From Cladocopium goreaui (taxonomy: Eukaryota; Sar; Dinophyceae; Suessiales; Symbiodiniaceae): a DNA stretch of 64,000 nt. Below, one piece after another: positions 12,401 to 49,580 of the stretch. A program made the translations under genes and the position numbers. Below the pieces are notes generated by a model. It saw nothing but the letters and a program-made list of their open reading frames with translations, was not told the origin of the DNA and ran no database searches. The stretch covers positions 62,001 to 126,000 of the forward strand of contig CAMXCT020001716.1 of NCBI GenBank assembly GCA_947184155.2. The letters run 5' to 3'. Each line of letters starts with the position of its first letter. Within the stretch, counting starts at the first letter, position 1.

Positions 12401-15400
12401 AAATCAACAGGACAAGCCATTCATCTGGTTACCTGGGGAGTTGCCATTCTTTGCAACAAGTAGCGAGCTCTTACAAGTTGCGTGTGCTCCTGATGATCGC
12501 ATTGCGGCACATAGGGTTGAAGAAAATGTTCCAATCTTCCGTGAAAACATCAAGATTGTTCCTGGGATGCCGAGTGAAACCAAAGGCCCCAAAATTGGGG
12601 AAGCTGAGGGCTCCAAAATTGGGGCAAAGGAAGGCTCCAAAATTGGGGCGAAAGAGGGCTCCAAAATTGGGGCGCCGGCATCAGACGCCGACTCCGAGGG
12701 TGGTGTAGAGTGGATCACAGCTGAGATCAGGCGTGCACGATCCATCGAGCATCGTTTGGCGCATTTCCCAAAATCAAGCCAATGTCCAGATTGCAGAATT
12801 GCAAAGTGCTACAAGAAGCGTGTCACCAAAAGGAGGGAATACGAACTCCTTGAACGAGGGCTGGACCCAGTTACCAGTTTTGGAGAGAGAATAGCTGTTG
12901 ACTTCATTGTTGTTGGGAAAACGGCCGAATCCAAAACAGACCGCTATGTTCTGATGATTCGTGACGAATGGTCTGGTTTTCTTCAAGGAGTCCCCATGTT
13001 TTCAAGAGATGGTGATTTGATTGTTTCTCACATCAAACGTTTCCTGGGGCCGCGCGCATCTTTGAGTACTTTGGTATGTAAAGCAGATGTCGCCAAGGAA
13101 TTTCAATATGCTTGTGAACAGCTTGGTGCGTTTTATGAACCTTCCATTGAAAGGTATTGGCCGCACAACTCGCGCCTTGAGCGTGACATACGGACATTTG
13201 AGGAGTCCGTCAGAGCCACTCATCTCGCATCAGGTTTCGCAGCGTATCCATCCCTGTGGTCCATCACAGTTCAGTACTGCACTGTTTCCCTTGCAAGCGC
13301 TTGGACACAACCTGACATAGTACCACCCGAAAGGGAAAGGCCCTTAACTCGACTTGAGGCTGCTTCAGGCCAAAGGTTTGATGGCCCTCAATGGTTGTTA
13401 GGACAACTGGTTTACTACAGGGTTAGTGATAGGACAAAGATCCACAAGTTTTCAGGGTCATGTCTTCCAGGTGTTTTTGCAGGATGGAGACTAGAGAATG
13501 GTTGCCGATACAGGGGTATTGTATTGGTCTTGGATTACGAGAAGATCCGAACCAAAACCGCGGGATTTGAACATCCAATTGCAGTGCCTCAAGAAGAGGT
13601 AGTCTTTGATGATCACTTGACAATGCCCCTCAAAGCTGCGCACCGTGAATCTTTAGCGAAGTTCAGTTTAGAAGACCCAACAAAGATTCCACCCATCAGT
13701 ATTCCTTTTAGTGAAGAACCCATTGAGCTTCCAGCGAAGACTCGTGCTGAATACATCACACTTGATCGTCTTATCAAGTACGGTGGTACTGACGGCTGCA
13801 GGGGCTGTGAAATGGTCACATCAAGACACACCAAAGCATGTCGTGATCGGTTCAATCGCCTCATCAGAGCTGACAAGCCGGTGCCCGTTGAAGTGAAGCC
13901 AAGGCCAATCACTACTGAGGAAGTTCGGGACAGTGTCGGGTCGGAGCCGCATGCGATCGCTTCAGGCGACCTTGCGGGATCCAGGCTCGACGACGATGTT
14001 GTTCCCATTTGTCCTCCAGAAAGTGATGGTGAATCTTCAGGTCCAGCTCCAACGACTCCAATTGATGATATTGACGCTGCAGCAGAAGTGACTGCTGTTG
14101 AATCTTTGGATGGGCTGGTTGTGCAAGCAGTGGCCAAAGAAACATGGGCTGGATTGTCCCGAGTTCGCCGTTTATCAACGGACCTTCCGGGTATTGGGGT
14201 GTTGTATGAATACGCCTGCAGTAGGGACTCTTTGATTGGTCAAATCTTACCACAATACAATGTCAAAGTTGTGCGCCTAAGTAAGGACGTCATTGACCTC
14301 AGCGATTTCCAGCACGTGCTTCAGCTGGTAGAGCAACTGAAAACGCAACATGGAGCTGATCTCTGGGTTTCACTTCCGTGTGATCCTTGGTCGAACCTTC
14401 AAGAACTCAACGTCCATCGTCTTGGGGATTCTTTTCTGAATGATCTCACGCAGAAACAGGAGGAGTCTTCTTACATGGTTGATCTTGCGCTACAAATCGG
14501 CGAATACGTGATCAGTCATAATGGGCGATTTGTTTGGGAATGGCCGGCATTTTGCAAGGGTTGGAGATTACCAAACTTGGTCAATTTTTGCAAAAGGCAC
14601 AATCTCATGATGGTTCAGTTCCATGGCTGCATGCTACAGCTGAAAGGGAAACGAGGTCAATATCTCAAGAAACCATGGATGTTCGCCACAAACGACCGCA
14701 GGATTGTTGAATTGTTCGCGGAAATGCAATGTGACCACTCGCCATCGCAACATGAACCATGTGAAAGTGGTAATGCTGCAAGGACCGCATATTACACAGT
14801 CTCCTTCGTGAACCTCATAGCTGAAGCTTTGTATCCAAAACAGTTCTACTCCACAAACATACCTGCATTCTGTTGCTCCCAGAGTGATCAGGTCCACGGT
14901 AATGAGGAGAGCTCGGTTGAAGCGCAGATGTTTGGTTTGGTCACCAAGGCACTCAACCGTAGCCAGTGGAGTGTTGATCCGAAGGCATTGGATGCTATAG
15001 CTAAGGAGGGACAAGGTTTGAGGGACAACAAGACGTGGGATGATTCAACTGCATGTGATCTTGACCAACTCGTCCATCAGTCAAAGACATTGGGCATGAA
15101 CATTCACGTAGCTGAACTTTTGGTTTTATGTGGCATCAAACATGCGGAATTAGATGAAACACAACACAAATATAAAGGGAGGATTGTCTACAGGGGTGAC
15201 AAAGTGTTCACACAAGATGGGGACATAGTTTTGTTCACTGAAGTGTCCACTTCTCCCACAACACTCATTGCTCTAAACGTTTGTTTGTGGTGGGGAGCTC
15301 TAGAGGGGCATGCCACTTCAACTGCAGACGCAGTACAAGCGTTTCTTCAAAGCTTTCTCCCTGATGACGACCTGACGTACGTCATTTTGCCAAGGCAGCT

Positions 15401-16616
15401 GTGGCTACCTGCATGGAAGTCAAAGTTCCATGGCAAGGTGGCGGTGAGACTGCGCAAATCCCTATATGGACACCCGCAAGCGGGTAGACTCTGGCAAGAG
15501 TTTCTAGAGAGCCGCATCTCTCGGCTTGGAGCTTCACAAATCCCAGGATTTCCTAGTAACTTCCTATTCCACATCGAGGGTCATAAGATGTTACTCAATG
15601 TGTACGTCGACGACTTGACTCTGTCAGGGAAGAGAGGTTTACACGCAAAGTTTTGGAAGCAGTTTTCTGAGCTGATCAAGATCGAAGATCCCAAAACTCT
15701 ACTCCCTAGCAGTTCGGTGTTGATTCTAGGTCGATTACATGAACAGGAAAGTCCTCAAACCGTAGTCATGTCCATGGTAGGTTACGCAGAGCAGTTTGTG
15801 CAGCTGTATCTAGATATCACTGGTGTTGATTCAAAAACATTGCGCAGGGTTGCCACGCCTCACATTAGTGATAGTACTCTGTCGGACACGCTATATGAAC
15901 AATCTGGATCCATGCAGGCTCACGCGTCAAAGATACTCATGAAGGGTCTTTGGTTGGCGCGGCTTTGCCGTCCCGACATTTCGTTTGCCGTAGGCAGGTT
16001 AGCAAGCCGGATCACAGTTTGGAGTCGAGCAGAGGATGTTCACATCCATCGTTTAGTTTCATATGTGTTTTGGACGAAAGGCTATCAGATGGTTTGTCAG
16101 GCTGGGCAAATTAGCAATACAGAGCTGCATGTGTATGCGGATGCGGATCTCGCGTCTTGTGTGCACACGGCCCGCTCAACATCAGGCATGATGATTATGC
16201 TTGTCTCGGGATCCTCGCGTTGGCCGGTCGCATGGAACTCGCGACGCCAAACGTCGGTGGCGCGATCCACTACGGAGGCAGAAATCATCGCGATGGCTGG
16301 GGCCATCTACTCAGAAGGACAGCCGCTCCTTGACTTGCTGCAACAACTTGTGGAGCGCGAAGTCACCATGAGGTTGTTAGAGGACAACGCTGCCACGTTA
16401 TCCATCTTGCATTCTGGATACTCAGTTCGTTTGAGACATGCGTCGCGCACTCACCGAATAGATGTCGCCAGTTTGGCTGACCTCATCCAACAACGAGGCA
16501 TGAAACCAGAACATGTGGGAACTGGAGATCAAGCAGCGGATGGCATGACCAAAGTTGTTGCGCCAATGTCTTGGGAACGTCTGATTCAGCTGCCATGCAT
16601 CAGAACGAAGACGTAG
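9447..16616 (+). CDS. Copia-1 gag-pol polyprotein with methyltransferase-like insert
   Basis: One frame of about 2,390 codons. It is open from 9,288, and the first ATG is at 9,447. In order: a Q-rich coiled-coil-like gag region; an Asp run (10,640-10,690); gag core (about 10,850-11,520); and a Lys/Pro/Gly linker. A CCCH finger C-x7-C-x5-C-x3-H follows (Cys 11,826, 11,850, 11,868; His 11,880). The protease motif DSGAG is at 12,165. A GSKIGAKE tandem repeat (12,586-12,672) leads to the integrase: HxnCxxC region about 12,755-12,800, Asp at 12,900 and 13,086, and Glu in the LERDIR segment. An MTase-like insert follows (about 14,140-14,870; SLPCDPWS with Cys at 14,379, then WEWP). RT has ADAVQAF and YVDD (15,603), and RNase H is at 16,130-16,560. 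No stop or frameshift breaks it, so it is probably competent. Confidence 0.93.
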   Translation: MSTGFSPPESSSLSISSSSQMVSSTEQPMGERAAAMTTVVEHQGNASRSHSRQSSRESSRSSSERKVVKKSNINRKGKPKVLTVSTQSAHPASPNVGVVATAPGLDSACAGFQPGFHDDDEVIDPHGSLHAQGHIDQRSIQQHHHVDQTFVDQRSVHQHVHIEDQQSRREADEARATALNIQAQAQRAVLEAEHVAKGLAFQANVEVNRVVESATRQVNQIIETASSENEELRRQNMHQHQIIQTASAEHQRQQHQINLQQQMIQALQDQLMQQQRQIEYLLTESRNSADFVHDVPPPVHPSPVHGSPTSTSGRPPRIPTPKAPSEASSATAELHAHMTDAVKALRQQIGESMKSMQDQINQLAGSRMSQPSPPNNFVFHEGSQQAFASRDPGDGGDDDDDDDDDGSDDPDADESWHGQAQPLIVARQGIQNGGEGGPPGDDPPRGNGNPYGDFMPGGAFIGDEDNIYRGKDLSNLSVPSLPRDASAFRGWRNSLIAKLSSIDRTGLGVIMRWAQTAFEPSNEQILFHLENFSDGLPRLDAWLAGQLSEPKHISKHMSGNIGMRFQGYLERAQPQAVPLKGRRMLHEVSKAFALDRMRGSQLTQQALLELPLDSFAQSDLRLFYDRVEFILNSIQPNMQPSEHTKYIFLFERLKKCNGMRRHIDRIRDSGVNSQKRSFGWLWNRFGEYLDELKEDTNQESVKKSLTTTAKPSNPKDSTGRTSALPSSPAKLDPVAKAAAAPPAKSSPKPPPPKNSKGKGGDTKGKGKGDNKAKGKDGKGQGGPKGSQPRSKAPCIFFPQGTCNRGDSCPFSHDVIDGEPAPKGKAQTKATAAPKAKTAEAVAFASLPSASASSESIMTAVVRACTAPLRYFAHIFACVVPVLHSSVAHTQVSEGTMSSSFCVDWISDSGAGRSLGSVSTLEAGGIPSELIKDNATYTDHPIEFATGGGARRGDQTIGYQGEVFGHTNAYLLPKGCPMVRSLGEIVNQQDKPFIWLPGELPFFATSSELLQVACAPDDRIAAHRVEENVPIFRENIKIVPGMPSETKGPKIGEAEGSKIGAKEGSKIGAKEGSKIGAPASDADSEGGVEWITAEIRRARSIEHRLAHFPKSSQCPDCRIAKCYKKRVTKRREYELLERGLDPVTSFGERIAVDFIVVGKTAESKTDRYVLMIRDEWSGFLQGVPMFSRDGDLIVSHIKRFLGPRASLSTLVCKADVAKEFQYACEQLGAFYEPSIERYWPHNSRLERDIRTFEESVRATHLASGFAAYPSLWSITVQYCTVSLASAWTQPDIVPPERERPLTRLEAASGQRFDGPQWLLGQLVYYRVSDRTKIHKFSGSCLPGVFAGWRLENGCRYRGIVLVLDYEKIRTKTAGFEHPIAVPQEEVVFDDHLTMPLKAAHRESLAKFSLEDPTKIPPISIPFSEEPIELPAKTRAEYITLDRLIKYGGTDGCRGCEMVTSRHTKACRDRFNRLIRADKPVPVEVKPRPITTEEVRDSVGSEPHAIASGDLAGSRLDDDVVPICPPESDGESSGPAPTTPIDDIDAAAEVTAVESLDGLVVQAVAKETWAGLSRVRRLSTDLPGIGVLYEYACSRDSLIGQILPQYNVKVVRLSKDVIDLSDFQHVLQLVEQLKTQHGADLWVSLPCDPWSNLQELNVHRLGDSFLNDLTQKQEESSYMVDLALQIGEYVISHNGRFVWEWPAFCKGWRLPNLVNFCKRHNLMMVQFHGCMLQLKGKRGQYLKKPWMFATNDRRIVELFAEMQCDHSPSQHEPCESGNAARTAYYTVSFVNLIAEALYPKQFYSTNIPAFCCSQSDQVHGNEESSVEAQMFGLVTKALNRSQWSVDPKALDAIAKEGQGLRDNKTWDDSTACDLDQLVHQSKTLGMNIHVAELLVLCGIKHAELDETQHKYKGRIVYRGDKVFTQDGDIVLFTEVSTSPTTLIALNVCLWWGALEGHATSTADAVQAFLQSFLPDDDLTYVILPRQLWLPAWKSKFHGKVAVRLRKSLYGHPQAGRLWQEFLESRISRLGASQIPGFPSNFLFHIEGHKMLLNVYVDDLTLSGKRGLHAKFWKQFSELIKIEDPKTLLPSSSVLILGRLHEQESPQTVVMSMVGYAEQFVQLYLDITGVDSKTLRRVATPHISDSTLSDTLYEQSGSMQAHASKILMKGLWLARLCRPDISFAVGRLASRITVWSRAEDVHIHRLVSYVFWTKGYQMVCQAGQISNTELHVYADADLASCVHTARSTSGMMIMLVSGSSRWPVAWNSRRQTSVARSTTEAEIIAMAGAIYSEGQPLLDLLQQLVEREVTMRLLEDNAATLSILHSGYSVRLRHASRTHRIDVASLADLIQQRGMKPEHVGTGDQAADGMTKVVAPMSWERLIQLPCIRTKT
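14140..14870 (+). other. Methyltransferase-like domain inside copia-1 pol
   Basis: This is an extra domain between integrase and RT. An aromatic-rich GVLYEYACSRDS sits where a SAM-binding motif I would lie, followed by KDVIDLSD, then LWVSLPCDPWSN, which resembles the PC motif IV of cytosine-5 methyltransferases. Further on is FVWEWPAFCKGW, placed like motif VI but with EWP in place of ENV. The motif order suggests a diverged methyltransferase fold. Loss of ENV makes catalysis uncertain. Similar SLPC...EWP segments are, from memory, common in dinoflagellate copia polyproteins. Confidence 0.5.
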
Positions 16617-24513: not shown

Positions 24514-24528
24514 CTCCATCCTACCCCA
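24514..24528. repeat. Target-site duplication of the LINE, left copy
   Basis: CTCCATCCTACCCCA (15 bp) is repeated exactly at 34,586-34,600. The sequence also occurs in array units, so a coincidence of repeat phase is possible, but the exact junctions fit a target-primed insertion. Confidence 0.75.
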
Positions 24529-24622
24529 GCCGTGTGTTCTCAAATGGGCACCTCCAAGCTTGGTGCGGCGGGATTCAACTGATCGCCCATTTCTTCTTCG
24601 TGTGTTCCCCCTTTTTGGTGCT

Positions 24623-26362
24623 ATGGACTGCATTTTATCTGGGGGCAAGGTGGCTTGTGAGATATTAGAAAGATGTGGTGAGGGTGTCTTCAACATCCAG
24701 ATTGAAGGTGGTACTTGTGGGATCCTCCATGTTCCTTCGGAATGGGATCAACATGTGCATCAATCATTCAAGGCTACTGTCTTTGACTTTCAGGTTGCTT
24801 GGCAGTCGGACAAGATTCACATTCATGTTTGCTTCGAGAAAGGCAGCGTGCTCTTCCTGCAGTCATCATTGCAAAGAGGACCGGCCAGGGTCGCAGAATT
24901 GTTTGGTGGAATTTCCGGATGGTCACATGCCATGCATGAGTGCAACGTGACACCAGTTGCCATTGTGGAAAAAGATCACAGAACTGCCCAGGTTTGTGCA
25001 GAGACGTGGAAATGTGAGGTCATTAGTCCAACTGTGTTCCTGCAGAGAGCTCTCAGCGGGGACTTGATGTCTCCTATCGTGGTGGAAGGGTCAGCTGTGG
25101 ATCCGACCGTTTGGATGGCATTTGGGATTTTGAACGTCACGACAGTGCTTGCATCACCTCCATGTCCTCCTTGGTCAAGTGCTGGTGTGGAAAAAGGTTT
25201 GAAATCAGAAGATGGGAAGGTGTTGTCCGATTTGTTGCTCAAAGCCGGGCATTTTCATCTCACTGCCTTGTTGATTGAGAACGTACCAGGGATTGTGAGC
25301 CATGCTGACTACCAAGTCTTGTTGGCCAATGCCGCACTTCATGGTATGCAGTTGATTCTTGCTGGTGTACATAACATTAGCCGATGCCTGCCGGTGTACA
25401 GAGACCGTTGGCTTGCCACCTTTGTACATAGCTCCGTACCGCTTGCCGATTTCGATGTACAGGCAGCTGCCAGATTGTCTCTTGCATCCGAGGGTTTTTC
25501 CTTGCCTGGTCCCAGCCTTGTTGCATCCGATTGCATCCTTCCTGCAAATGCATCCGGCCGTGACCACCTGATTCCGTCCCATGAAGTCTTAGCCATGTTG
25601 AGTCGTAGTGACATGATTCCCAAGTGGATGGCTGATAAGATCAATTGGAAGGAAAGCAATGCAGTCCTGAAGGCAAGGATCATCTGCAAAGATCAAAAGC
25701 TTTCAGGCATCATGGCACGATATGGCAGCCAACACTTGTTGCCTTTAGAGCATTTGAAGTCCAAGGGGTTGCAAACTGTTTTGTTCAACGATGAGGGTGT
25801 TATCAGATATTTTTGCCCATGGGAGATCCTTGCTGCGTTGGGATTTCCAAGCAGAACTGTGATTTCATCCGATCTTGCATTTGCTTTTCAGTTGACAGGT
25901 AATGCCATTAGTCCTGTACATGCTTGGATTCAAATTGCACGCACACACAAAGCACTGGGCTTGTTGTCGCCATTTCCACATGACCTCGACGTTTCCAAGG
26001 CATTGAAAGTGATTTTGGAAAAAGCTGCCAAGCTGTCCGCATTCACATGTGTCAACCATGACCAATTTGCTGTACTTGAACTGGCAGTTCAGGAGGTTGA
26101 TGAGATTGAGGCGACTGATCCTCAAGTCAAACGTGCAAGGAAGGCTGCAGTTGGAGGTGAGGTGACCCCCACAGTAGCTTTTGATATCGAGGCATCGGAA
26201 TCAGAGATGGACTTCACACGCCATTTGAAGCAAGAACCAAAGTTCCATGTTGGCAAGATGGATGGTGCTGCCATGCAATCGTTTTGTCCAGGGGGGGATT
26301 CTGTTTTTGAAACATGTTCAGAACAATTGGATGATGGTTGTCCATGGCCCAGTCGATACTAA
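24623..26362 (+). CDS. Cytosine-5 DNA methyltransferase encoded by the LINE
   Basis: 579 residues from ATG 24,623. It should transfer a methyl group from SAM to C5 of cytosine. All key motifs are present: motif I ELFGGISGW (residues 92-100), motif II VAIVEKD, and motif IV ASPPCPPWSS with catalytic Cys181. Motif VI is IENV (Glu219), motif VIII YRDRW (residues 259-263), and motif X QLTGNAISPVHA (about 423-434). The target-recognition region lies between VIII and X. An N-terminal extension of about 90 residues and a C-terminal tail of about 130 are unassigned. The ORF overlaps the next by 116 bp in the +1 frame. Element-borne C5-methyltransferases are known in Symbiodinium; the gene is intact here and probably active. 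Confidence 0.93.
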   Translation: MDCILSGGKVACEILERCGEGVFNIQIEGGTCGILHVPSEWDQHVHQSFKATVFDFQVAWQSDKIHIHVCFEKGSVLFLQSSLQRGPARVAELFGGISGWSHAMHECNVTPVAIVEKDHRTAQVCAETWKCEVISPTVFLQRALSGDLMSPIVVEGSAVDPTVWMAFGILNVTTVLASPPCPPWSSAGVEKGLKSEDGKVLSDLLLKAGHFHLTALLIENVPGIVSHADYQVLLANAALHGMQLILAGVHNISRCLPVYRDRWLATFVHSSVPLADFDVQAAARLSLASEGFSLPGPSLVASDCILPANASGRDHLIPSHEVLAMLSRSDMIPKWMADKINWKESNAVLKARIICKDQKLSGIMARYGSQHLLPLEHLKSKGLQTVLFNDEGVIRYFCPWEILAALGFPSRTVISSDLAFAFQLTGNAISPVHAWIQIARTHKALGLLSPFPHDLDVSKALKVILEKAAKLSAFTCVNHDQFAVLELAVQEVDEIEATDPQVKRARKAAVGGEVTPTVAFDIEASESEMDFTRHLKQEPKFHVGKMDGAAMQSFCPGGDSVFETCSEQLDDGCPWPSRY

Positions 26363-27536
26363 GTTGGAAGTGATGGTGTTTCGAGCTTTACCACATGCCA
26401 CGGACATGCATTTCCAAACTTTTTGGTGGAGAGGTCATGAGGTTGCATGGCATGACATGATCACATGTGCCCCACCTGCCACGGTGGTGTTTGCGCCCAA
26501 GACATTTACAGTCACTTGCCGCATGGAGGATGGTACGTGCATTTGCATGAATGCTGATGTGACATGGACGGTGAAAACTGTGGTTGCTTTCCTGGCTGGG
26601 AAAGTGGGTTTCCAAGCAGAAATCATTTCCTTGGCATTCAATGACCTTGACATGAAGGATTGTGACTACGTTGCTGAGTTTCCGTCGTGGACGTTCCATG
26701 TTCGATTGAATGCATGCCTGCCGGGATATGTGAAGTTTGCACCGGTTGAAATCAAGGTGCAGGAAAAAGGCATGATCCCTGCACACTATGGATGTATGAG
26801 ATTTGTTGCGAAGCACCCTGCCTTGAAAATCATCCGCACTGCATGTGTGCCAAAGTCAGCATCCATTTCTTCTGTACTTCGTGTTTTGTTTCCAGATTTG
26901 TGCAGCACGGTGTCATGGACTGTTCACATTGATGGTGTTCCTGTTGACGCAGAGATGGGAGTGAAGAACAACATGTGTTTTGAAGTGGAATGGGATTGCT
27001 TTAAGCCATTGGAACCCACGAGCATTTTTGCTGCCAGATTTGACCTTCCAATTGATGCCCCACAGTTGCAGGTGAAGTTTCATGACAAACCTGACCGATG
27101 GATCAGATCACCCTTGCGTTCCAAAGCACAGATACTGAGGACTGATGAAGACGCCATGTTGATGCAGCTTGCCATTTCCTTCATTTCCCATGCACAGTTG
27201 GATTTATCCATCGCCTGCCACCTTGGAAGCAAGCTCGTTGACCCAAAGATTGCATTGAAAGATGTGCCAGTGAGTGACGTGATTTGTTTCAAGATCGCTC
27301 CACTTGTGGGTGGAGCAAAGAAGAATGGAGACGCCATCAAACAACGAGTCTGCAAGGCACTTGAGGAACATGGGGTCGCGAAAGAAACATGCAATGACAG
27401 AACTGCAGCTTTTTTCCAGAAGGCCGACATTGAAACACTTGCCAAAGCAGATGATCGCAAGGACGATGATTTTTGGAATGCTGTGAAAGATGAAGCAAAC
27501 AGGCAGGGTTCACTTCCGGTTGGTCTACAGGAATGA
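26247..27536 (+). CDS. LINE ORF with ubiquitin-fold-like segments
   Basis: 429 codons from ATG 26,247. I recognise no enzyme. The pattern in FTVTCRMEDGTCICMNADVT, followed by ISLAFNDLDMKDCDYV, resembles a ubiquitin-like beta-grasp fold. Two more such units seem to follow, the last ending ICFKIAPLVGGAKK, where a Gly-Gly precedes a helical tail. Dinoflagellate LINEs often have such a frame ahead of the endonuclease-RT. It overlaps the methyltransferase frame by 116 bp and the following frame by 47 bp, each time in +1. The ubiquitin-like reading is inference. Confidence 0.6.
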   Translation: MLARWMVLPCNRFVQGGILFLKHVQNNWMMVVHGPVDTKLEVMVFRALPHATDMHFQTFWWRGHEVAWHDMITCAPPATVVFAPKTFTVTCRMEDGTCICMNADVTWTVKTVVAFLAGKVGFQAEIISLAFNDLDMKDCDYVAEFPSWTFHVRLNACLPGYVKFAPVEIKVQEKGMIPAHYGCMRFVAKHPALKIIRTACVPKSASISSVLRVLFPDLCSTVSWTVHIDGVPVDAEMGVKNNMCFEVEWDCFKPLEPTSIFAARFDLPIDAPQLQVKFHDKPDRWIRSPLRSKAQILRTDEDAMLMQLAISFISHAQLDLSIACHLGSKLVDPKIALKDVPVSDVICFKIAPLVGGAKKNGDAIKQRVCKALEEHGVAKETCNDRTAAFFQKADIETLAKADDRKDDDFWNAVKDEANRQGSLPVGLQE

Positions 27537-29130
27537 AATGAAGTCCATACGTAAGGACAACCGTAGGAAGCCACCCAGCCGAGACAACAAACGTTCCCAG
27601 CATGGTCCCAAACGTGATGAGTTTGTTGCAAACGCTTCCAACATTGTGATCGATATGAAACACTTCAAAGCAGATGATGAAGATGTTGAAAGATTGGATG
27701 CATCCAGATTTGGTCCCGACCAGACAGGTGTTGCCATCATGGAATTGACAGAAGCTGACAGACATGTGGTTGGCCATTCCATCTCTGTTGCACCATTGGC
27801 CATTTTGATTGTTGGGAAACGCTTTGGACCCAATGATGAACCTTTCACAATGCCAGCGCACACAGTTAGTGGTTTGCCTATCATCATTCATGCTGCACTG
27901 CGCCAGTTTGGAGACAGGAACATCGACTTCAAAGCGGCGGTGCCTGTGTCCCAGGTTGACACGGCTGCATCAACTGTCATTGAGCTTCACATCCTTCGGA
28001 AAGAGGTTGGAGCATGGAAAGAATGCAACGTGCCTTTGCATTACCTGGGTGTCCATATTTCTGCTGTTAGGGGTTCTAGTCTGATTGCCACATGGTCCAT
28101 GAAAACGTGGTCAGAAGACAGGAAACCTGTTCCCTTCATGGAAGCTGCGTACTGGCATGGTTTCATCCGAGTTCCCGATGAGATTTTGGATCAGGTCCTT
28201 GTCAGATCAGGACATGCTGGAATCTATGTGTCACCCAAAGATGGCAGCAAGAGACATGATGAAAGATTTGCAGCCATTGCCATGCCTGACCTTAATTTAA
28301 TGGAAATTCAGAAGAAAGCCGCCATGCACGACAAGGCATTGGGCATTGTGAAGTTGAGGGATCAATTTGCCATCCGATGCCGTAGGGAGCATTCGTCCTG
28401 CCTCCGTGCCAGTTTGTTACCTGAATCTGCATTTGTAGCATCCGAAGGTGTAGGTGCTGATGACACAATTTGGGTTTTGAAGAACATGCCATTGGAAGTG
28501 GGGAAAGATGGTCTCCAATCAGCTCTACTGCAGTCTGGTTGGGATGCTGTGCCTATTCGTGCCCAGGGTCCGAACAGATGGCTTGTAGCTGCGAAACAGG
28601 AACCGGAGTCAAAGCATTTTTGCATCAATGGATCTTATGTTCTTGTGGAGCCCATCAAACGTCAGCGTGAAAACCATGCTGTGACCATCACAGCCAAGCA
28701 GGTCAAAGTTGACACCACGATCACTGCCACACCTGGGGCCATGCAAGTGGCGACATCGACACGGATTCAGGAGGTGAAGGCTGAGATATCCGACCATATG
28801 GAGATGAAGATGCAAGCAGCGAACCAGCGCATAGAGCAACTTTCATGTGCACTGGAAAGATTGCAGGCAGAGCCGTGCAGACAGGAAACAGAGGTTAAAG
28901 GTGAATTCACTGCCATCAAGAATGAACAAGCCTTTGCAAGACAAAAGATTGGCGAAGTTGAAGCATCAGTTGTGCAGTCAGGACAAACAGTCATCCAGAC
29001 CATGCAGCAGATGATGACCAATCTGGAGGCTAACATGAAGCAGTGGATGGTTAAAAATGATTCATGTGACGCAAAGAGACAACGGGCTGAGGAGACACCA
29101 CGCAATGACAGTTTCTCCATCAAGTCTTGA
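27490..29130 (+). CDS. LINE ORF1-like protein with RRM-like and coiled-coil regions
   Basis: 546 codons from ATG 27,490, with a very basic N-terminus (KSIRKDNRRKPPSRDNKR). A segment near residues 325-395 (DTIWVLKNMPLEVGKDGLQ ... YVLVEPI) fits an RRM-type fold. It is followed by a Gln/Glu/Met-rich stretch (about 430-525) likely to form a coiled coil. RRM plus coiled coil is the plan of many LINE ORF1 nucleic-acid chaperones, which trimerise and bind element RNA. The order is reversed relative to vertebrate L1. It ends 27 bp before the in-frame ATG of the next ORF. Confidence 0.65.
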   Translation: MKQTGRVHFRLVYRNEMKSIRKDNRRKPPSRDNKRSQHGPKRDEFVANASNIVIDMKHFKADDEDVERLDASRFGPDQTGVAIMELTEADRHVVGHSISVAPLAILIVGKRFGPNDEPFTMPAHTVSGLPIIIHAALRQFGDRNIDFKAAVPVSQVDTAASTVIELHILRKEVGAWKECNVPLHYLGVHISAVRGSSLIATWSMKTWSEDRKPVPFMEAAYWHGFIRVPDEILDQVLVRSGHAGIYVSPKDGSKRHDERFAAIAMPDLNLMEIQKKAAMHDKALGIVKLRDQFAIRCRREHSSCLRASLLPESAFVASEGVGADDTIWVLKNMPLEVGKDGLQSALLQSGWDAVPIRAQGPNRWLVAAKQEPESKHFCINGSYVLVEPIKRQRENHAVTITAKQVKVDTTITATPGAMQVATSTRIQEVKAEISDHMEMKMQAANQRIEQLSCALERLQAEPCRQETEVKGEFTAIKNEQAFARQKIGEVEASVVQSGQTVIQTMQQMMTNLEANMKQWMVKNDSCDAKRQRAEETPRNDSFSIKS

Positions 29131-29157
29131 AAGAGAAGGCAGGGAAAACAAGCAGGG

Positions 29158-32100
29158 ATGGTTTCCAACGCCTGCCTCAGAATCATTATCCTTGCAATGT
29201 TTGCAGTTGTCACTCATCAGACATATGCCAATTACAGAGAACACAACCCATTTTGGGAAATGACATGCAAGGGCCTTTTTTCAGAGGCCAAATTTAATGC
29301 AAGCATGCCACACACGACAAGGGTTTCATCAGACCCAGGCTGTTCCATGCATGGTGTTAGGATTGGCGAGGCAGATCATCCCGGCCCAATGCGACTGGGA
29401 ACTTTCAACCCACACCAGATCCTTAACAAAGAAGAAGTGATTGTTGAATGGGGCCCGGGTATTTGGGCTGGTGCAGAGACTTCGCATACCATAGATGCAA
29501 TGAAGGTTTCCAAAGCACGTTTCAAAAAAGCAGGTTTCCATTCGTCATGGAGTTCCCCAGTTGCCAAACATACTGCAGATGCCGGTTTGTACAGAGGAAA
29601 GGCCTCAGGTACATGTGTGATTTCTCACCTTAAGCTTAAGCCTTACCCTGCAGTTCCCACAACCTTAGCTGAGCAGTCTTCCAGATTGTCCGAATGTTTG
29701 GTGGATGTTGGCAATGGTACCCACATGTATGTTGCTGCAATGTATGGTCCTACACATACCACAACCTTCTTTGATCCATGGGCGATTCTGTGTGGGATTT
29801 GCACGGAAGTGTTTGACCATGATCTGGCTTACAAAGGTCCTGCTGTGATCATGGGAGACTTCAACGTCGACATTGACAAGATTCCACGTTGGACTGCAAT
29901 GCAACGGGCTGGATGGATTGATGCTGCAGCTTTTGATGCTAACAGACGTGGTGTTTGCCCCAACCCAACTAGTAAAAACAAAGTTCGTAGATCATTCATC
30001 TTGCTTAATTCACGCCTTGCCCAAGCACTTGAATGGTGTGACACGATTGAGGAGTTTGAATTTGATTCACATCCATTGTTGGCTGCCGATTTGAACGTTG
30101 AAGCCATCACCAGACCGCTTTCTAAATGGTGGCTGCCTGCTTCTACTGACCCATACATGTTTGACCCTGCACTGATGGAAACCAGCGCAGAGAGATGCAT
30201 TATTGAACAAGGACCCAAGTTTGAGAATGCTTTACATCATGCTGATGGGGATGAAGCCATGCGCCAAATCAACATAGCCTTTGACCAGTGCCTGGCCTCT
30301 TCATGCGTTGACTCCATAGGCAATGAGGTGCGTCTTCCGAAGAAATGTTTTGGTAGGGGGTATAAAAGGGTTAAAAGATTGGTTGCGCCGTCTGCACCCA
30401 TTGTTCCACATGGCCGACAAGACCAGTTTAATCCCGACATTTGCCAGCCTTCCATGTGCATCCGCCTCATGATTAAGCAAGTCAGACGTTTGCAAAGCTT
30501 GGAATCACAACTCACGGCAGTTGAAAAGTATGGTAATCCACTTGCTGTTGCTGCATGTGCGACTTTGTGGACCGCAGTGTTAGATAGCAAAGGGTTTTCT
30601 CCTTCTTTCCAAGAGTTTGTGCTCACCAAGTTTGGCATTTTTGTACCCTCATGTTGCCCAGGGGTCGAATACTTGCGTTACTTGATTGCCATCACCAAAA
30701 ACCATGTGCAGGAAATTGTGAATGAAACTAACAAAGTCTTGCGCCATAAGCGTGAATGCAGGATGCTCCGTGACATCAAGAACGGAGGTGCCAATGCTTT
30801 CAGAGCGGTTCGTGATGCTGAGGTACCACCTTTGCATGCAATTGCTCATGAGGTTAAGGTGAAGGTGGTACCAGTTCGATGGCCGAAGCAGGGCCGTGAC
30901 ACTTTGAAAGTTGAAGGTGAATGTCATGACTTTGACTTCCAGTTTCCTGTGTACTTTCAGGAACAAGAGTGTTTTGTTACCCATCAACGTGGCCATTTCC
31001 TGACGCTGGATCGACATGTAAAGTGGCGTAACTGTGATGATTGGTTTCTCACACAAAAGCGCTTCACCTCTGATCCAGCTGGAATGCAGGAGTTGACTGG
31101 GCATGCATGGTCAACAATGTGGAGAAGGGATCCCCGTGAAGATAAAGAAGAGAATTGGGATGAGGTGTTGCGTCACTTGCAGGTGATTGATGCTTTTCCT
31201 ACACTCCAATATCAACCCCTCAATGTTGCTGAATGGAAGAGACATGCTGCAACAACTGCCCGCAAAAGCGCCAGAGGTGCATGTGCATACACCTCACGTG
31301 ACTTAGCCATTATGCCTGATTGCCTTGCCAGTTGGCTACTCCGTGTCCTGATGGCGATTGAACGTGGCCAGTTTAACTGGCCAAGATGTTTGATGATTGC
31401 GCGCGTTGTGATGCTGTGCAAAACTGCTGAACAGCCCACCAGTCCCCTGCAGACTAGGCCCATCACCATTGCGTCACGCATTTACCGTAATTGGGCCAAA
31501 TACCGATCAGCTCAGATCATACAACATGTCCAAACATTTCTCCCTCCGCAGATTGCTGGCACTGCTGCGGGGGTGAGTGCTGATTGTTTAGCTGCAAGGA
31601 TGTTGGTCGAAGTGGAGCAAGCTCTGTTGAACGACACACCACGCATGGGCATTACAGTCGACCTGGTGAAGTGTTTCAATCAGATACCACGTATCCCTAT
31701 CCTATGCGCTATGCAAAAACTGGGCATTCCTTGGCAATATACAACAGCACTGCACAGCATGTTTTTGCAACTTAGACGGGTTTTGGAGCTTTCTGGCGAG
31801 ATTGGTGATGAATGGGATTCAACAACAGGGGTCCCCGAAGGTTGTGCTATGTCATTAGTTGCCATGATGTCTCTTACGGTTTGGGCTACACAGCATATTT
31901 TGGTACAAGCTCAGTCTACTGATGTGTGTTGTTTGGCTTACGCAGACAACTGGGCAGTTATCACCAGTGCTCTTGAGCAACTTGACAAGGCAGTTTCAGC
32001 CTTAACAGACTTGGTGCGCTTGTTGAGGATGCGCATTGCACCAGACAAATCTTGGACATGGGCGACACACACCAAACAAAGAAGAGAACTGAAGGAGATT

Positions 32101-33057
32101 CACATTGACGGAACTACAGTCCCGATGAAACTGATGGGCACTGAATTGGGCTGTGATATGTCATATTGCAGAAAGGTCTCCAAAAAGGTCTCCCAAAAGC
32201 GTATTGGTAAAGCGGTGAGAGTTTTGAAAAGGGTTGGTAAGAGGGTCATGCCAACCAGCTTCAAGAATCGGATGGCCAAACAATTGGTAGCTGGCATAAC
32301 TGGATATGGTAGTGAATTGGTGTATCACACACCATCAGACTTGCGTACGTTGCGCACTGCAACATGCGCTGCCATGGGGAGATCCAGAGCAGGCAACAAT
32401 CCATATCTCACGACGCATGTAACCACAGGTTGCACCGACATTTCGTTGGCTTTGCTGAAACGGAAAATATTTTTCTGGAGAAGATACTTTAAAGTGTTTC
32501 CCGGGACTGAAGATTGGTTTCTGCAAACTTTGACAATTCAAAAGATGCGTGTTGGTGCCACTGCCTTCTTACGTAGGACGCTTGATGATCATGGTTGGAA
32601 ATGCCTTCCTCATGGTATCATTCAACATGAACGTGGTTGGAAGATCAATTGGGTCAAAGACAGCGAACATCATGTTGTGAAAGTTTTGGAGCTTTCATGG
32701 TCCGTACAGGTTTGCAAGCTGGTGCAGCATCGCTCTTCCTTTGATGCAGAATGCCTGGATGTAAAGGGTTTTGAGCAGGTTGTCAAAAAGTTGGACCATG
32801 AGAAAGTTGTCCATTCTATGAACCTTGCTGTCGGTAAACATATTACCAATGAGTCGCTGTCACACTATGCCAAGGGTGCCAAGTCTGCCAAGTGTCCCTT
32901 TTGCCCTGCCAAGGACAGTCGTTTGCACAGGGTTTGGTCTTGTCCTGGCACAGCTAAGCATAGGGATAAACATGCTGAGACCATGCGTTGGCTTCACGAA
33001 CAACTAGACGTTGTCGCTGTTTTTGGTTTTAAGTCCTTTGGACTTGACATGGGTTGA
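29158..33057 (+). CDS. LINE endonuclease-reverse transcriptase
   Basis: 1,299 codons. The N-terminus has a hydrophobic, signal-like segment (LRIIILAMFAVVTHQTYA). A motif GEADHPGP follows (residues 70-77), resembling the 2A-like NPGP box found near the start of some LINE proteins, but with His for Asn. The APE endonuclease shows AGAETS, MYGP, MGDFNVD (Asp233) and DSHPLL (about residue 303). RT shows RPITIASRIYRNWAKY, motif A TVDLVKCFNQIP, PEGCAMS and the active box AYADNWAV (Asp930-Asn931), so YADD is YADN. C-terminal CPFCPAKDSRLHRVWSC is a CCHC finger typical of LINEs. No stops. Confidence 0.93.
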   Translation: MVSNACLRIIILAMFAVVTHQTYANYREHNPFWEMTCKGLFSEAKFNASMPHTTRVSSDPGCSMHGVRIGEADHPGPMRLGTFNPHQILNKEEVIVEWGPGIWAGAETSHTIDAMKVSKARFKKAGFHSSWSSPVAKHTADAGLYRGKASGTCVISHLKLKPYPAVPTTLAEQSSRLSECLVDVGNGTHMYVAAMYGPTHTTTFFDPWAILCGICTEVFDHDLAYKGPAVIMGDFNVDIDKIPRWTAMQRAGWIDAAAFDANRRGVCPNPTSKNKVRRSFILLNSRLAQALEWCDTIEEFEFDSHPLLAADLNVEAITRPLSKWWLPASTDPYMFDPALMETSAERCIIEQGPKFENALHHADGDEAMRQINIAFDQCLASSCVDSIGNEVRLPKKCFGRGYKRVKRLVAPSAPIVPHGRQDQFNPDICQPSMCIRLMIKQVRRLQSLESQLTAVEKYGNPLAVAACATLWTAVLDSKGFSPSFQEFVLTKFGIFVPSCCPGVEYLRYLIAITKNHVQEIVNETNKVLRHKRECRMLRDIKNGGANAFRAVRDAEVPPLHAIAHEVKVKVVPVRWPKQGRDTLKVEGECHDFDFQFPVYFQEQECFVTHQRGHFLTLDRHVKWRNCDDWFLTQKRFTSDPAGMQELTGHAWSTMWRRDPREDKEENWDEVLRHLQVIDAFPTLQYQPLNVAEWKRHAATTARKSARGACAYTSRDLAIMPDCLASWLLRVLMAIERGQFNWPRCLMIARVVMLCKTAEQPTSPLQTRPITIASRIYRNWAKYRSAQIIQHVQTFLPPQIAGTAAGVSADCLAARMLVEVEQALLNDTPRMGITVDLVKCFNQIPRIPILCAMQKLGIPWQYTTALHSMFLQLRRVLELSGEIGDEWDSTTGVPEGCAMSLVAMMSLTVWATQHILVQAQSTDVCCLAYADNWAVITSALEQLDKAVSALTDLVRLLRMRIAPDKSWTWATHTKQRRELKEIHIDGTTVPMKLMGTELGCDMSYCRKVSKKVSQKRIGKAVRVLKRVGKRVMPTSFKNRMAKQLVAGITGYGSELVYHTPSDLRTLRTATCAAMGRSRAGNNPYLTTHVTTGCTDISLALLKRKIFFWRRYFKVFPGTEDWFLQTLTIQKMRVGATAFLRRTLDDHGWKCLPHGIIQHERGWKINWVKDSEHHVVKVLELSWSVQVCKLVQHRSSFDAECLDVKGFEQVVKKLDHEKVVHSMNLAVGKHITNESLSHYAKGAKSAKCPFCPAKDSRLHRVWSCPGTAKHRDKHAETMRWLHEQLDVVAVFGFKSFGLDMG

Positions 33058-33088
33058 TTGGAAGTTGGAACAGCAGTGCGGTATTCCT

Positions 33089-34321
33089 ATGATAAGATGT
33101 TTACATGAAGCCACGGAGTCTCATGTCACTGTTTTCACTGATGGCAGTGCAATTGGTCAGGGTCACCTCAGTTTTTGCGTTGCTGCCTCAGCATACATTC
33201 AATGCACTGCATGGAAGGTGATCAGAAGATGTGCGGAGCCGGTTCCAGGCAATGACCATTCGGCTTTTAGGGCAGAAGTTTGGGCTATTGTCATGGCCAT
33301 GCGAGACTTCCGCAGGATCCACATTTTCACTGATTGTTCGAGCGTTGTTGAAAACTTGTCAGCAATTCTGTCAGCTAGACTTGCCGGCACCAGACCCAAA
33401 TTTCATGACCATGAGGACCTTTGGCACATTGTGTGGGAACTTATGTCTGATCGTGATCATGATGACCTTATGGTTACTAAAGTGCGTGCCCACCAGAATA
33501 TTTCCAAAGTGCTTGATCCCATTGAAAAATGGAAAGCCACTATGAATGACCATGCTGACAAATTGGCCAAGAGTTGCATCCGAAAACACTGGAAGGACGA
33601 AATCCAGGACATTTTGGAATGTTTGCAGTTGCGCGCCAACGATGTATGCAGGCTTCATGACTTTCATGAAATGTGGAATCAGATGAATGAGGAAGCCATC
33701 CAAATCTCCAAAAAACAGTCACATGGTGATGCTTTGCCTAAACCTGCATTTCGTTTGTTGTTTGATGAGCAGCAAGCAGTTAGTATCCCCTGCGTGATTG
33801 CGGAAACAAAAATTGAATCATGTATCTACACTGAGTTGTTTGCCAGAAGGGTTGTTAACTATTTCCATAACTTGGAATGGGACTTCACCCAACCTAATGT
33901 GAGCACTCTGGAGTTGTACATTGACTTTGCGCTATGGTCAGGTACTGTCGCCCCTGCGTTGATTCATGCTGGCAGTAAAAAGACTGGAAAGCACAACCGT
34001 TCCTACCAGCTCCCTGATCAGTGCCCACTTGCTGATCTGGCGCAGTGCACCTTACGGCAGCAGAGTCGAGTTTGGTCCAAGATGCTTGCCTGGCTTAGAG
34101 AGAACTGGCATCAAGCCCCCGGCAAGCCACAATTGGGTTGCACCAGCTTAGCCAAGGTGGGCTACCACCAACAGCACTATGGAGTTCCTGGCACTCCCAG
34201 ATTTCGTTCTGGCTTGCGTGTGTTGCATGAATTAAGATCCTTTTTTGAGACATCCAAAGGTTACAGAACCAATATGGACCGTAGATGGAATGTGCAACAA
34301 GCCCCACTTGGAGGCGCATAA
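33089..34321 (+). CDS. LINE RNase H protein
   Basis: The frame is open from 33,011; the first ATG is 33,089. RNase HI motifs are complete: TVFTDGSA, SAFRAEVWAI, IFTDCSSV and MNDHADKLAK supply the Asp-Glu-Asp-Asp set. The C-terminal 250 residues are unassigned. The open frame overlaps the RT frame by 47 bp in +1, so it may be made by frameshifting, reinitiation, or have been split by an indel. Confidence 0.85.
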   Translation: MIRCLHEATESHVTVFTDGSAIGQGHLSFCVAASAYIQCTAWKVIRRCAEPVPGNDHSAFRAEVWAIVMAMRDFRRIHIFTDCSSVVENLSAILSARLAGTRPKFHDHEDLWHIVWELMSDRDHDDLMVTKVRAHQNISKVLDPIEKWKATMNDHADKLAKSCIRKHWKDEIQDILECLQLRANDVCRLHDFHEMWNQMNEEAIQISKKQSHGDALPKPAFRLLFDEQQAVSIPCVIAETKIESCIYTELFARRVVNYFHNLEWDFTQPNVSTLELYIDFALWSGTVAPALIHAGSKKTGKHNRSYQLPDQCPLADLAQCTLRQQSRVWSKMLAWLRENWHQAPGKPQLGCTSLAKVGYHQQHYGVPGTPRFRSGLRVLHELRSFFETSKGYRTNMDRRWNVQQAPLGGA

Positions 34322-34585
34322 TATTCCCATAATTAGTTTTTCATGGCATCCGTTGCAGAGGCAGACTCCCAGTCTGCACATTGGTAATTCATTGGACCGT
34401 CCAGTGGTCCCCCACCATGCAGCCACCGCTGCTTCAAGCATCCGTGCATCCGCATGTTTTTGTTCCGAATTTGTTTTGGCGACACAATTCGCTGGCAAGC
34501 ACGGTCTAAAGGTTCACGACTGTGACGCAGTAGCCGCACAGTTTTGAGGCCGAACAAAGGCACGCGACAAGAAGAGTCCAAAAGA
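34322..34585 (+). other. LINE 3' UTR with three hairpins
   Basis: Inverted repeats follow one another: GCAGACT-CCC-AGTCTGC (34,361-34,377), GGACC...GGTCC (34,394-34,410) and GCAGC-CACC-GCTGC (34,419-34,432). Stringent LINE reverse transcriptases recognise 3' stem-loops, so these are candidates. The element ends GTCCAAAAGA with no long poly(A). Confidence 0.6.
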
Positions 34586-34600
34586 CTCCATCCTACCCCA
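34586..34600. repeat. Target-site duplication of the LINE, right copy
   Basis: CTCCATCCTACCCCA, identical to 24,514-24,528. Confidence 0.75.
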
Positions 34601-35499: not shown

Positions 35500-35940
35500 T
35501 TGGGGCGATGATGGTGGGAGGATGTGGGACCGCTGCGGCACTATAAAATGGAAACCCCCAACCCCCAGAAAATCCTACCAGGAAGGGCATGTAATCTCTA
35601 TAAAATCAGAGCACCCAACCCCTCAAGAAACCATTCATTTTTGGATGTTGTAAGATACAGGGGGTTGGGGGTTCCTATTCTATAGTAGAAAGTTGGCTAG
35701 TTCCTTCATTTTAAGGCTAGGCTCCAGGGTACGTTGGGGCCTCCCATTTTATAGTGATGGAGGGTTTTGCAGTAAATTTGTAGCTGTAAATATTTGTTTT
35801 TTCAAATAAATTTCTTATTTTATAGAGGTGCACCTGTTTTGTGACCTTGGGTGTTTCCATTTTATAGAGGTCCCACTCCGGGGGGGGATGGGTGCCCCCG
35901 TTTTAGTACTATAAAATGGGGGCACCCAACCCCCCCACTT
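35500..35940. repeat. Direct and inverted CTATAAAATGG / CACCCAACCCC modules
   Basis: CTATAAAAT modules followed by CACCCAACCCC or AACCCCCAACC occur at about 35,541, 35,599 and 35,909. Inverted forms (GGGGGTTGGGG...CTATAG, CATTTTATAG, TATTTTATAG) lie at about 35,665, 35,747, 35,817 and 35,862. The arrangement is a cluster of imperfect palindromes. Confidence 0.7.
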
Positions 35941-35956
35941 AATCTAGTAGGGGATG

Positions 35957-37396
35957 TTAAAAGTATATGGGTGAAAAGTATGTGCACGAAGAGTTTCTGG
36001 GTGAAAGTATATGGGTGAAAAATATGTGCAAGAAAAGTTTCTAGGTGAAGAGTCTCTGGGTGAAAAGTATATGGGTGACATGTATGTGCAAGAAGAGTTT
36101 CTGGGTGAAGAGTCTCTGGGTGAAAAGTATCTGGGTGAAAAGTATGTGCAAGAAGAGTCTCTGGGTGAAAAGTATATGAGGGTAAAAAGTATATGGGTGA
36201 AAAGTAAAATTGAGGCTCCGATGTGGGACCATTATATGTGCAAGAAGAGTTTCTGGATGAAGAGTCTCTAGGTGAAAAGTATATGGGTGAAAAGTTTGAG
36301 CAAGAAGAGTCTCTGGGTGAAGAGTCTCTGGGTGAAAAGTCTGTGCCAGAAGAGTTTCTGGGTGAAGAGTCTCTGGGTGAAAAGATGTGAACAGTATATT
36401 GGTGAAAAGTATGTGCAAGAAGAGTTTCTGGGTGAAGAGTCTCTGAGTGAAAAGTATATGGGTGAAAAGTAGGTGCAAGAAGAGTCTTTGGGTGAAAGTA
36501 TATGGGTGAAAAATATGTGCAAGAAAAGTTTCTAGGTGAAGAGTCTCTGGGTGAAAAGTATATTGGTGAAAAGTATGTGCAAGAAGAGTGCTCTGGGTGA
36601 AAAGTCTCTGGGTGAAAAGTATATGAAAAGTATGTGCAAGAAAGTGAAAAGTATATGGGTGAAAAGTATGTGCAAGAAGAGTTTCTGGGTGAAGAGTCTC
36701 TGGGTGAAAAGTATGTTGGTGAAAAGTATGTGCAAGAAGAGTTTCTGGGTGAAGAGTCTCTGGGTGAAAAGTATATGGTTGAAAAGTCTGTGCAAGAAGA
36801 GTTTCTGGGTGAAGAGTCTCTGGGTGAAAAGTATATGGGTGAAAAGTATGTGCAAGAAGAGTTTCTGGGTGAAGAGTCTCTGGGTGAAAAATATGTGCAG
36901 GAAGAGTTTCTGGGTGAAGAGTCTATGGGTGAAAAGTATATGGGTGAAATGTCTGCGCAAGAAGAGTTTCTGGGTGAAGAGTCTCTGGGTGAAAAGTATA
37001 TGGGTGAAAAGTATGTGCAAGAAGAGTTTCTGGGTGAAGAGTCTCTGGGTGAAAAGTATATGGATGAAACATATGTGCAAGAAGAGTTTCTGGGTGAAGA
37101 GTCTCTGGGTGAAAAGTATATGGGTGAAAAGTATGTGCAAGAAGAGTTTCTGGGTGAAGAGTCTCTGGGTGAAAAGTATGTGCAAGAAGAGTTTCTGGGT
37201 GAAGAGTCTCTGGGTGAAAAGTATATGGGCGAAAAGTATGTGCAAGAAAAAAAATTGGGTGAAGAGTCTCTTTGTGAAAAGTATATGGGTGAAAAGTCTG
37301 TGCAAGAAGAGTTTCTGGGTGAAAAATCTCTGGGTGAAAAGTATATGGGTGAAATGTATTGAAGAGTCTCTGAGTGAAAAGTATGGTGGAAAATAG
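35957..37396. repeat. 60-bp higher-order minisatellite built of four 15-bp subunits
   Basis: The unit is GAAGAGTTTCTGGGT, GAAGAGTCTCTGGGT, GAAAAGTATATGGGT, GAAAAGTATGTGCAA, with some subunit loss. Because 15 is a multiple of three and no subunit holds a stop in most frames, long open frames exist on both strands (for example a 529-codon minus frame over 35,862-37,451). I treat them as by-products. Confidence 0.9.
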
Positions 37397-37654
37397 GGGT
37401 AGATGGGATGCTGGCTTTCGTTCCCCCCTTCTCAGGTAGAGGGTTTGCCATCCTTGTCGCATTTGCTTTAGAACCCCTCTTTCGCCGTATTTTTTTATTG
37501 AGTCGTCAAGTTCCCTGAGTTCATTCGGGGTAGGGGCGTGGGTCTTCAGGGGCAAACAGATAGCACAGCATTGTGAGGCTGGTGCATGGCAAGAAGCCCT
37601 CGGGCTGCTGTTTACTATGCATCTCAGCTACGGAGTCATCTTGTTACAGCGGCA

Positions 37655-48281: not shown

Positions 48282-48845
48282 CGGGATTGGCGGTGCCTTC
48301 CGGGGGTATGACCTGGCAGGAGTCAAGCCTGCTGGATTGATCGCTATTGAGTGGGACCACGCAGCACAGCGCGTGACAAGAAAGGCTTGGCCTGGCCCAA
48401 CGTCATAGAGCATGCTGACATTGAGCTCATTACCAAGAGGCATGTTAAAGAGTGGGCCAACATGTTCCCACGGGCAACCCATGTGCACCTCATTGGGGGA
48501 TTCCCGTGTGTGCACTTATCTTCAGCCCGGGCAGGGCGCAAGAATCTCTTGCAGTTCTTCTAGGACCTCAAGCAGCTCATTGGTTGGATCAAGGATGTCT
48601 TTGGCCGCACGGCACTTGTTGACTTCGTGGTTGAAAATGTGCTCAGGATGGATACTGCGGCCCAGGCGCAGATCTCTGTTGAGTTGAGTGTCGAGCCGTT
48701 GGCGCTCTGCCCCTCTGACATGCTGCCCTACAATCGGCCTCGGCTAGCTTGGGTCAGCCAGCCTGTTGTTGCGAGCAAAGGTGTGTGGCTGGAACCGCAA
48801 GATGGGTTCGATCGTGTGCACATGAGTGGAGATGGCCTCCATATG
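48282..48845 (+). pseudogene. DNMT3-like cytosine methyltransferase remnant in copia-2
   Basis: The segment begins in motif I (GIGGAFRGYDLAG) and continues to motif II IAIEWD and AAQRVTRKAW. A tandem 5-bp duplication (TGGCC at 48,388-48,392 and 48,393-48,397) then shifts the frame. After it come NVIEHADIELITKRHVKEW, motif IV GGFPCVHLSSA (Cys at 48,507) and RAGRKNL. A TAG stop at 48,561 precedes a downstream part with motif VI FVVENVLRMD (48,627-48,656). The spacing and the 'GxPC...ARxGRKxL...ENV' pattern resemble DNMT3-type enzymes. The N-terminal side of motif I is missing where the sequence meets the primer-binding site, and no target-recognition domain or motif X was seen. The copy is dead. 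Confidence 0.8.
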
Positions 48846-48849
48846 AACA

Positions 48850-49580
48850 ATGGATGCATACATGCATGCATGCATACATACATTGCATACATATATTATC
48901 ATACATTGATTGACATACATTGACATACATTGAGATACATTGACATGCATTGACATGCATTGACGTACATTGTTACATACATACATACATACATGCATTG
49001 AGGTGCGTTGACATACATTGACATACATTGACATGCATTGACATGCATTGACATACATTGACGTACATTGATACATACATACACACATGCATACATACAT
49101 ACAGACATACATACATACATTGATTGACATACATTGACATGCATTGACATGCATTGACGTACATTGATACATACGTACATACATACATGCATGCATGCAT
49201 GCATACATACACACGCACATACATACATACATGCATGCATGCATGCATACATACATACATACATACATACATACATACATTGAGTGACATACATTGACGT
49301 GCATCGACAAACATTGACACATACATACATGCATACATGCATGCATGCATGCATGCTTGCATGCATACATGCAAACATGCATACATGCATGCATGCATAC
49401 ATGCATACATGCACCCATGCATGCATGCATACATGCATACATGCATACATGCGTGCATACATGCATGCATGCATACATGCATGCATGCATACATGCATAC
49501 ATGCATACATGCATACATGCACACATGCATGCATGCATACATACATACATGCATGCATGCATGCATACATGCATATTGCA
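48850..49580. repeat. CATACATTGA / CATGCATA microsatellite
   Basis: Long alternation of CATA, CATG and CATTGA units. It produces Met/His/Cys/Tyr/Val frames in all six frames (up to 298 codons); none is considered a gene. Confidence 0.95.

Follow-up and report, generated by a model that had tools for sequence, protein, structure and literature searches.

In a 64,000-nucleotide stretch of DNA from the dinoflagellate Cladocopium goreaui (GCA_947184155.2, contig CAMXCT020001716.1, positions 62,001 to 126,000; hereafter the window), a long interspersed nuclear element (LINE) at 24529–34585 on the forward strand carries a C5-methyltransferase (DNMT) domain as its cargo. The element is a further member of SymbioLINE-Dnmt, a family described by de Mendoza et al. 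in 2018 (PMC5890265), and in this copy, as assembled, the reading frames are interrupted at three points. In its relatives the first open reading frame (ORF1) joins the methyltransferase to predicted RNA-binding segments, and we consider it probable that the enzyme rides on the element's ribonucleoprotein (RNP); its substrate there would be RNA of the element itself or the new DNA copy.

A methyltransferase domain opens ORF1

The domain was placed at 24881–25957 on the forward strand by a Pfam match, an AlphaFold model, a Foldseek comparison and residue counts; numbered from the frame that begins at 24623, the catalytic Cys181 is encoded at 25163–25165 and Glu219 at 25277–25279. This frame matches PF00145 (E 3.2e-12), and along it follow the peptides FGGISGW, SPPCPPW, IENVPG and PVYRDRW, a CPWE segment and TGNAISP, which are the C5-methyltransferase motifs in their order. 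The AlphaFold model has a mean predicted local distance difference test score (pLDDT) of 88.9, and its closest solved folds in Foldseek are M.HhaI, a DNA enzyme, and, close behind, DNMT2, an RNA enzyme. Family match, peptides and fold model together bear out the initial annotation, which had read a C5-methyltransferase with ordered motifs in the first frame.

The C5-methyltransferases among the PDB sequence matches were DNMT2 (E 0.014–0.7) and M.HaeIII (0.57), all weak. The close protein hits were members of SymbioLINE-Dnmt, a family whose DNMT is of an orphan lineage and not Dnmt3; one protein record, P0001, is 99% identical over 341 DNMT residues and starts at the same methionine as the 24623 frame. 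A bacterial or phage origin was considered and rejected: the 172 pattern hits in prokaryote genomes included three weak matches, and five records of Thermus phages stood at 24%. With the patterns used, no relatives were found on viral contigs.

Relatives encode two ORFs

The first piece of ORF1, with the methyltransferase region, spans 24623–26290, its frame running on out of register to 26362; ORF2 is present as a first piece with endonuclease and reverse transcriptase (RT) at 29158–33057 and a second with RNase H at 33029–34321, all on the forward strand. Three breaks interrupt the coding sequence on this strand, at 26283–26296, 27496–27503 and 33029–33048, and by a strict test the relatives are continuous across them in 39 of 43, 45 of 45 and 27 of 32 cases, respectively. 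These relatives came from three protein searches, which returned 13, 45 and 45 sequences, and were placed on the window by tblastn; some are gene models and possibly spliced. The misses at the first break (P0028, P0029, P0042 and P0051) are single proteins whose alignments have a gap at the junction, and those at the third (P0093, P0096, P0099, P0100 and P0103) are each less than 25% identical. Among the Skav models, locus length indicates an exact single frame for 9 of 13 in ORF1 and for 7 of 10 in ORF2, a count made by hand from tables.

Because relatives read through all three junctions, their native plan comprises two ORFs, about 1,500 and 1,700 residues long, and the five frames found here are a product of the breaks. 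The five-ORF layout of the initial annotation does not survive this comparison, and neither does its account of the first frame as unbroken: beyond 26283–26296, the last part of the 579-residue frame is an out-of-frame tail. Its endonuclease, RT and RNase H, on the other hand, were recovered downstream, with RVT_1 in the fourth frame (E 1.2e-15) and RNase_H in the fifth (E 4.8e-10) above their cut-offs and Exo_endo_phos in the fourth slightly below (23.1 bits, cut-off 24.5); PF03372 is present in some ORF2 relatives.

P0059, an intact ORF2 of 1,720 residues on another public contig, reads through the third break and matches the two ORF2 pieces at 99.3% and 99.8% identity. A DNA search of the window's own assembly (1,165,616,438 bases in 6,202 contigs), which may miss copies, found no second close copy, and a 29-mer from the 3′ end of the element occurs there once; P0059 and P0001 therefore come from other records, and perhaps represent the same locus of another strain. 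As assembled, this copy can encode neither full-length protein, and could yield at most a truncated protein that retains the complete catalytic domain. In P0039, a predicted protein of 2,423 residues, the ORF1 tail continues into ORF2 with no stop between them.

Predicted RNA-binding segments follow the methyltransferase

Beyond the methyltransferase, the middle region of ORF1 (26292–27329, forward strand) was analysed by hhalign and PDB profile search as segments A (26292–26501), B (26499–26717), C (26781–27017) and D (27087–27329). Segment B appears ubiquitin-like: hhalign gave 54.9%, against 3.6% for the best of 80 shuffled controls, and 13 of 18 rows in the PDB profile search were ubiquitin-like, the best with an E value of 0.024 and none below 0.001. 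Likeness of A to C and of C to D was weak by hhalign, and the profile search of the PDB gave no match for D. At the end of D, on the same strand, lies a conserved PLxGG(A/G)K (27300–27320; over a 42-row alignment P is kept in 42 rows, L in 41, the two G in 40 and 41 and K in 39), whose GG is a candidate processing site and is present also in P0057 and P0058, both without a DNMT match. The middle region is partly doubled in the own assembly at C5981:648080-650304 and C2890:1107271-1109137 and in P0024 and P0052, as if the number of modules varied.

Further along the forward strand, the structure model and its fold matches predict an RNA recognition motif (RRM)-like fold at 28450–28680, and the model has a long helix, probably a coiled coil, at 28762–29049, shortly before the ORF1 stop codon at 29128. 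The structural matches of the tail bear mainly on residues 321–397, with no named fold for the remainder. With methyltransferase, RRM and coiled-coil folds all predicted, the models place the enzyme on what is probably an RNA-binding protein. This anatomy of the rest of ORF1, with its apparently ubiquitin-like segment, conserved PLxGG(A/G)K, predicted RRM and probable coiled coil, looks new: literature listings for SymbioLINE, for LINE ORF1 with DNMT and RRM, and for LINE ORF1 with ubiquitin-like domains, supplements and closed journals aside, gave no earlier description of the tail, and the words ubiquitin and RRM are absent from the main text of PMC5890265.

The methyltransferase is linked to the reverse transcriptase

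In the own assembly the DNMT protein gave at least 79 rows (78 of 270 candidates scored), a few of them fragments of a single element (four on C2890, two on C1112), and the RT protein at least 37 (36 of 1,854 scored), merged into at least 33 loci including the window's; a match not listed may nonetheless exist. Open frames of 1,400–1,600 residues contain 41 of the 79 DNMT rows listed, indicating an intronless coding region. Among the matches listed, a DNMT row lies upstream, on the same strand and within 12 kb, at 22 of the 33 RT loci, a tally made by hand. The 11 loci without a listed DNMT row are on C1243, C5889 (its second element), C4258, C937, C3768, C2330, C2685, C5317, C5944, C240 and C130; three of these match only from residue 375 or beyond, and three others adjoin a partial ORF1 tail. 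On C5981 and C2890, DNMT, middle region, tail, RT and RNase H follow in that order on one strand; on C1759 nothing matched between the middle region and RNase H.

In named gene models, among the matches listed and again counted by hand, an RT gene lies next to ORF1 at 11 of the 20 loci, downstream in all six for which the strand is given, and at three of those 11 the ORF1 model has a partial DNMT (P0017, P0023 and P0029). The DNMT domain is covered in 33 of 45 ORF1 matches, covered partly in 5 and not covered in 7 (P0020, P0021, P0025, P0039, P0053, P0057 and P0058); P0025 adjoins a gene named as DNMT, and P0019 lacks the PPC motif. On this evidence the methyltransferase is cargo of the LINE and not its neighbour, as the initial annotation had proposed.

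Bounds and insertion site

The bounds of the element were set where homology to a tandem array, with a unit of about 147 nucleotides, ends on either side; the element lies within this array. The 15 bp at 24514–24528 are identical to those at 34586–34600, and a third copy of the 15-mer occurs at 34716, inside the surrounding array; as the 15-mer is part of the array unit, the duplicate by itself is weak and not independent evidence. However, one duplicate joined to both flanks can be aligned with an intact array unit uninterrupted at the join, a single 4-nucleotide gap lying further on, which supports a target-site duplication and agrees with the exact 15-bp duplications claimed initially. The 3′ untranslated region at 34322–34585 (forward strand), read from the sequence, has no poly-A tail. 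The dinoflagellate spliced leader was not found in the window at up to 5 mismatches.

Selection on the enzyme

In an alignment of 44 rows, selected for the presence of the domain, 42 retain the catalytic Cys and all 44 the Glu, and Glu219 is present at each of the first 30 own-genome loci. Selection acts on the enzyme in recent copies: nine disjoint recent DNMT pairs, picked from 17 compared (within groups of four, by locus order), have 51 synonymous and 34 nonsynonymous differences, with a ratio of nonsynonymous to synonymous change (pN/pS) of 0.193. Three of the 17 pairs involve L037 and have at most 2 synonymous and at most 5 nonsynonymous differences each, giving ratios of 0.72, 1.44 or undefined. 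L034–L037 (on C3147, C338, C580 and C5970) all have Ser for the catalytic Cys (APSEPWS) and retain Glu219; this lineage possibly encodes a non-catalytic methyltransferase.

An enzyme tethered to the element's RNP

The fusion of DNMT to predicted RNA-binding segments makes it likely that the enzyme is found on the element's RNA–protein complex. We propose that the predicted RNA-binding tail of the ORF1 protein would hold the methyltransferase on the RNP, and that the tethered enzyme would then methylate the element's RNA or its newly made DNA copy; tethering, substrate and any benefit are all things that we infer. On this favoured view, tethering to the RNP would account both for the fusion and for the selection on the enzyme.

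Several observations weigh against it. Assayed by itself in yeast, the SymbioLINE domain produced no methylation, a result its authors called inconclusive (PMC5890265), and which under tethering would perhaps reflect the missing tail. The C-terminal part of ORF1 is better conserved, at 60–67%, than the DNMT, at 46–49% (P0015, P0016, P0018, P0019 and P0022). Of the first 30 own-genome loci, 29 have letters at the catalytic Cys and 24 of these keep it, with Ser in L034–L037 and Phe in L033; Asn220 is present in 24 of 30, with Gln in 6. The pN/pS pairs belong to other lineages, 29–50% identical to the window DNMT, two of the nine are the Ser-bearing L034–L037, and some pairs may be segmental duplicates; in four elements of the window's own group, DNMT and RT distances disagree (r −0.77, n 4). 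CpG depletion was rejected as proof of self-methylation: the element stands at 0.517 and its flanks at 0.683 and 0.611, but neighbouring bins at 18–24 kb are equally low (0.52–0.54), and CpG-type changes among the differences from 99%-identical copies are too few for use.

Relatives without the enzyme are a further point of this kind. P0057 and P0058, possibly incomplete proteins, hold the tail without a DNMT match. Read directly, C5944 has an ORF1 tail (ORF1 profile, E 2.4e-39), and the 6.2 kb upstream of this tail contain no DNMT; DNMT-less related LINEs therefore exist, in line with their report in 2018 (PMC5890265), and together with the Cys-less copies they indicate that the enzyme is not always needed. 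The initial annotation had supposed that LINE copies lacking the enzyme, together with the enzyme gene standing alone inside boundaries of its own, would mark a chance neighbour; C5944 bears on the first part, being a related LINE without the enzyme, but of a distant lineage.

That a host methyltransferase gene happens to stand beside a LINE has virtually no chance of being right: the DNMT-less related LINE is the sole point in its favour, and it is refuted by the relatives' ORF1, which is one continuous frame with the tail, and by the DNMT–RT linkage, the two lying in the window inside one pair of flanking duplicates. More substantial, if still doubtful, is the suggestion that the locus is intact and its frame breaks stem from assembly error or from programmed frameshifting. 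The shift has the same direction at all three breaks, an intact, 99%-identical ORF2 exists in P0059, and P0009, over its last 25 residues, also loses frame near the first break, where a G-rich stretch may be prone to indels. Programmed shifting, however, is unlikely and was rejected, as the relatives need none; mutation or assembly error may each lie behind the breaks.

The remaining explanations concern what the enzyme does. Methylation of RNA only, either the element's RNA or, as for DNMT2, tRNA, could protect RNA or aid translation, and is on balance unlikely. The predicted RRM-like tail would fit it, as would the weak PDB matches to DNMT2 and M.HaeIII, and RNA was suggested as a possible substrate by the family's authors (PMC5890265), but the fold search fails to separate DNMT2 from M.HhaI. 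A role in trans, in which the enzyme methylates host DNA and contributes to maintaining CG methylation of the genome, we regard as distinctly unlikely; the element would then live where methylation is the default, and RNP tethering would be irrelevant. The closest fold, M.HhaI with DNMT2 just behind, and the at least 79 DNMT rows in the own genome agree with such a role, as does the methylation of most of the Symbiodinium genome at CG; yet host Dnmt5 and Dnmt6 were deemed the likely source of that methylation and the majority of intronless DNMTs were silent (PMC5890265), and the role needs no fusion to a probable RNA-binding tail.

An extension of the tethering proposal, very unlikely in our estimate, would make ORF1 a polyprotein in which DNMT and tandem ubiquitin-like modules ending in a near-invariant LxGG are followed by an RRM and coiled-coil RNA-binding protein; a host deubiquitinase-like protease would cut after the GG, as in polyubiquitin, freeing the enzyme once the RNP is at its target. 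If true, the element would deliver a timed cytosine methyltransferase with every new copy. The 2018 paper left the role of the LINE enzyme open, and the anatomy of ORF1 is a reason to consider the whole protein, including its probable RNA-binding tail, with RNA and nascent cDNA as candidate substrates.

Elsewhere in the window, an uninterrupted Copia polyprotein of 2,442 residues (RVT_2, CCCH zinc finger) occupies 9288–16616, with the methyltransferase-like words LPCDPWS and VWEWP upstream of its RT; a methyltransferase-like domain there is unsupported, profile comparison with DNMT giving 4.3%. Open frames at 35862–37555 and 48744–49659, on one or both strands, consist of short tandem repeats and are probably not genes.

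Comparison with known elements

SymbioLINE-Dnmt carries DNMT in an ORF that precedes the one for RT (PMC5890265), so that the layout, which the initial annotation thought possibly undescribed, is already known. The window element shares with that family the upstream DNMT ORF, the following ORF with Exo_endo_phos, RVT_1 and RNase_H, the target-site duplications, the lack of poly-A and the lack of introns; it differs in that three breaks interrupt its reading frames. Cytosine methyltransferases are also carried by SymbioDIRS-Dnmt3 and the charophyte Dnmt3 retrotransposons, but the SymbioDIRS types have a tyrosine recombinase and hold DNMT inside Pol (PMC5890265), whereas DNMT and RT occupy separate ORFs in the window element. 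The five frames of the latter gave no Pfam match to a tyrosine recombinase. The ORF1 protein of L1-type LINEs combines a coiled coil with an RRM, and the ORF1 described here is predicted to have both; in contrast to the L1 type, its predicted RRM precedes the coiled coil, and a methyltransferase and at least one apparently ubiquitin-like segment are placed ahead of both.
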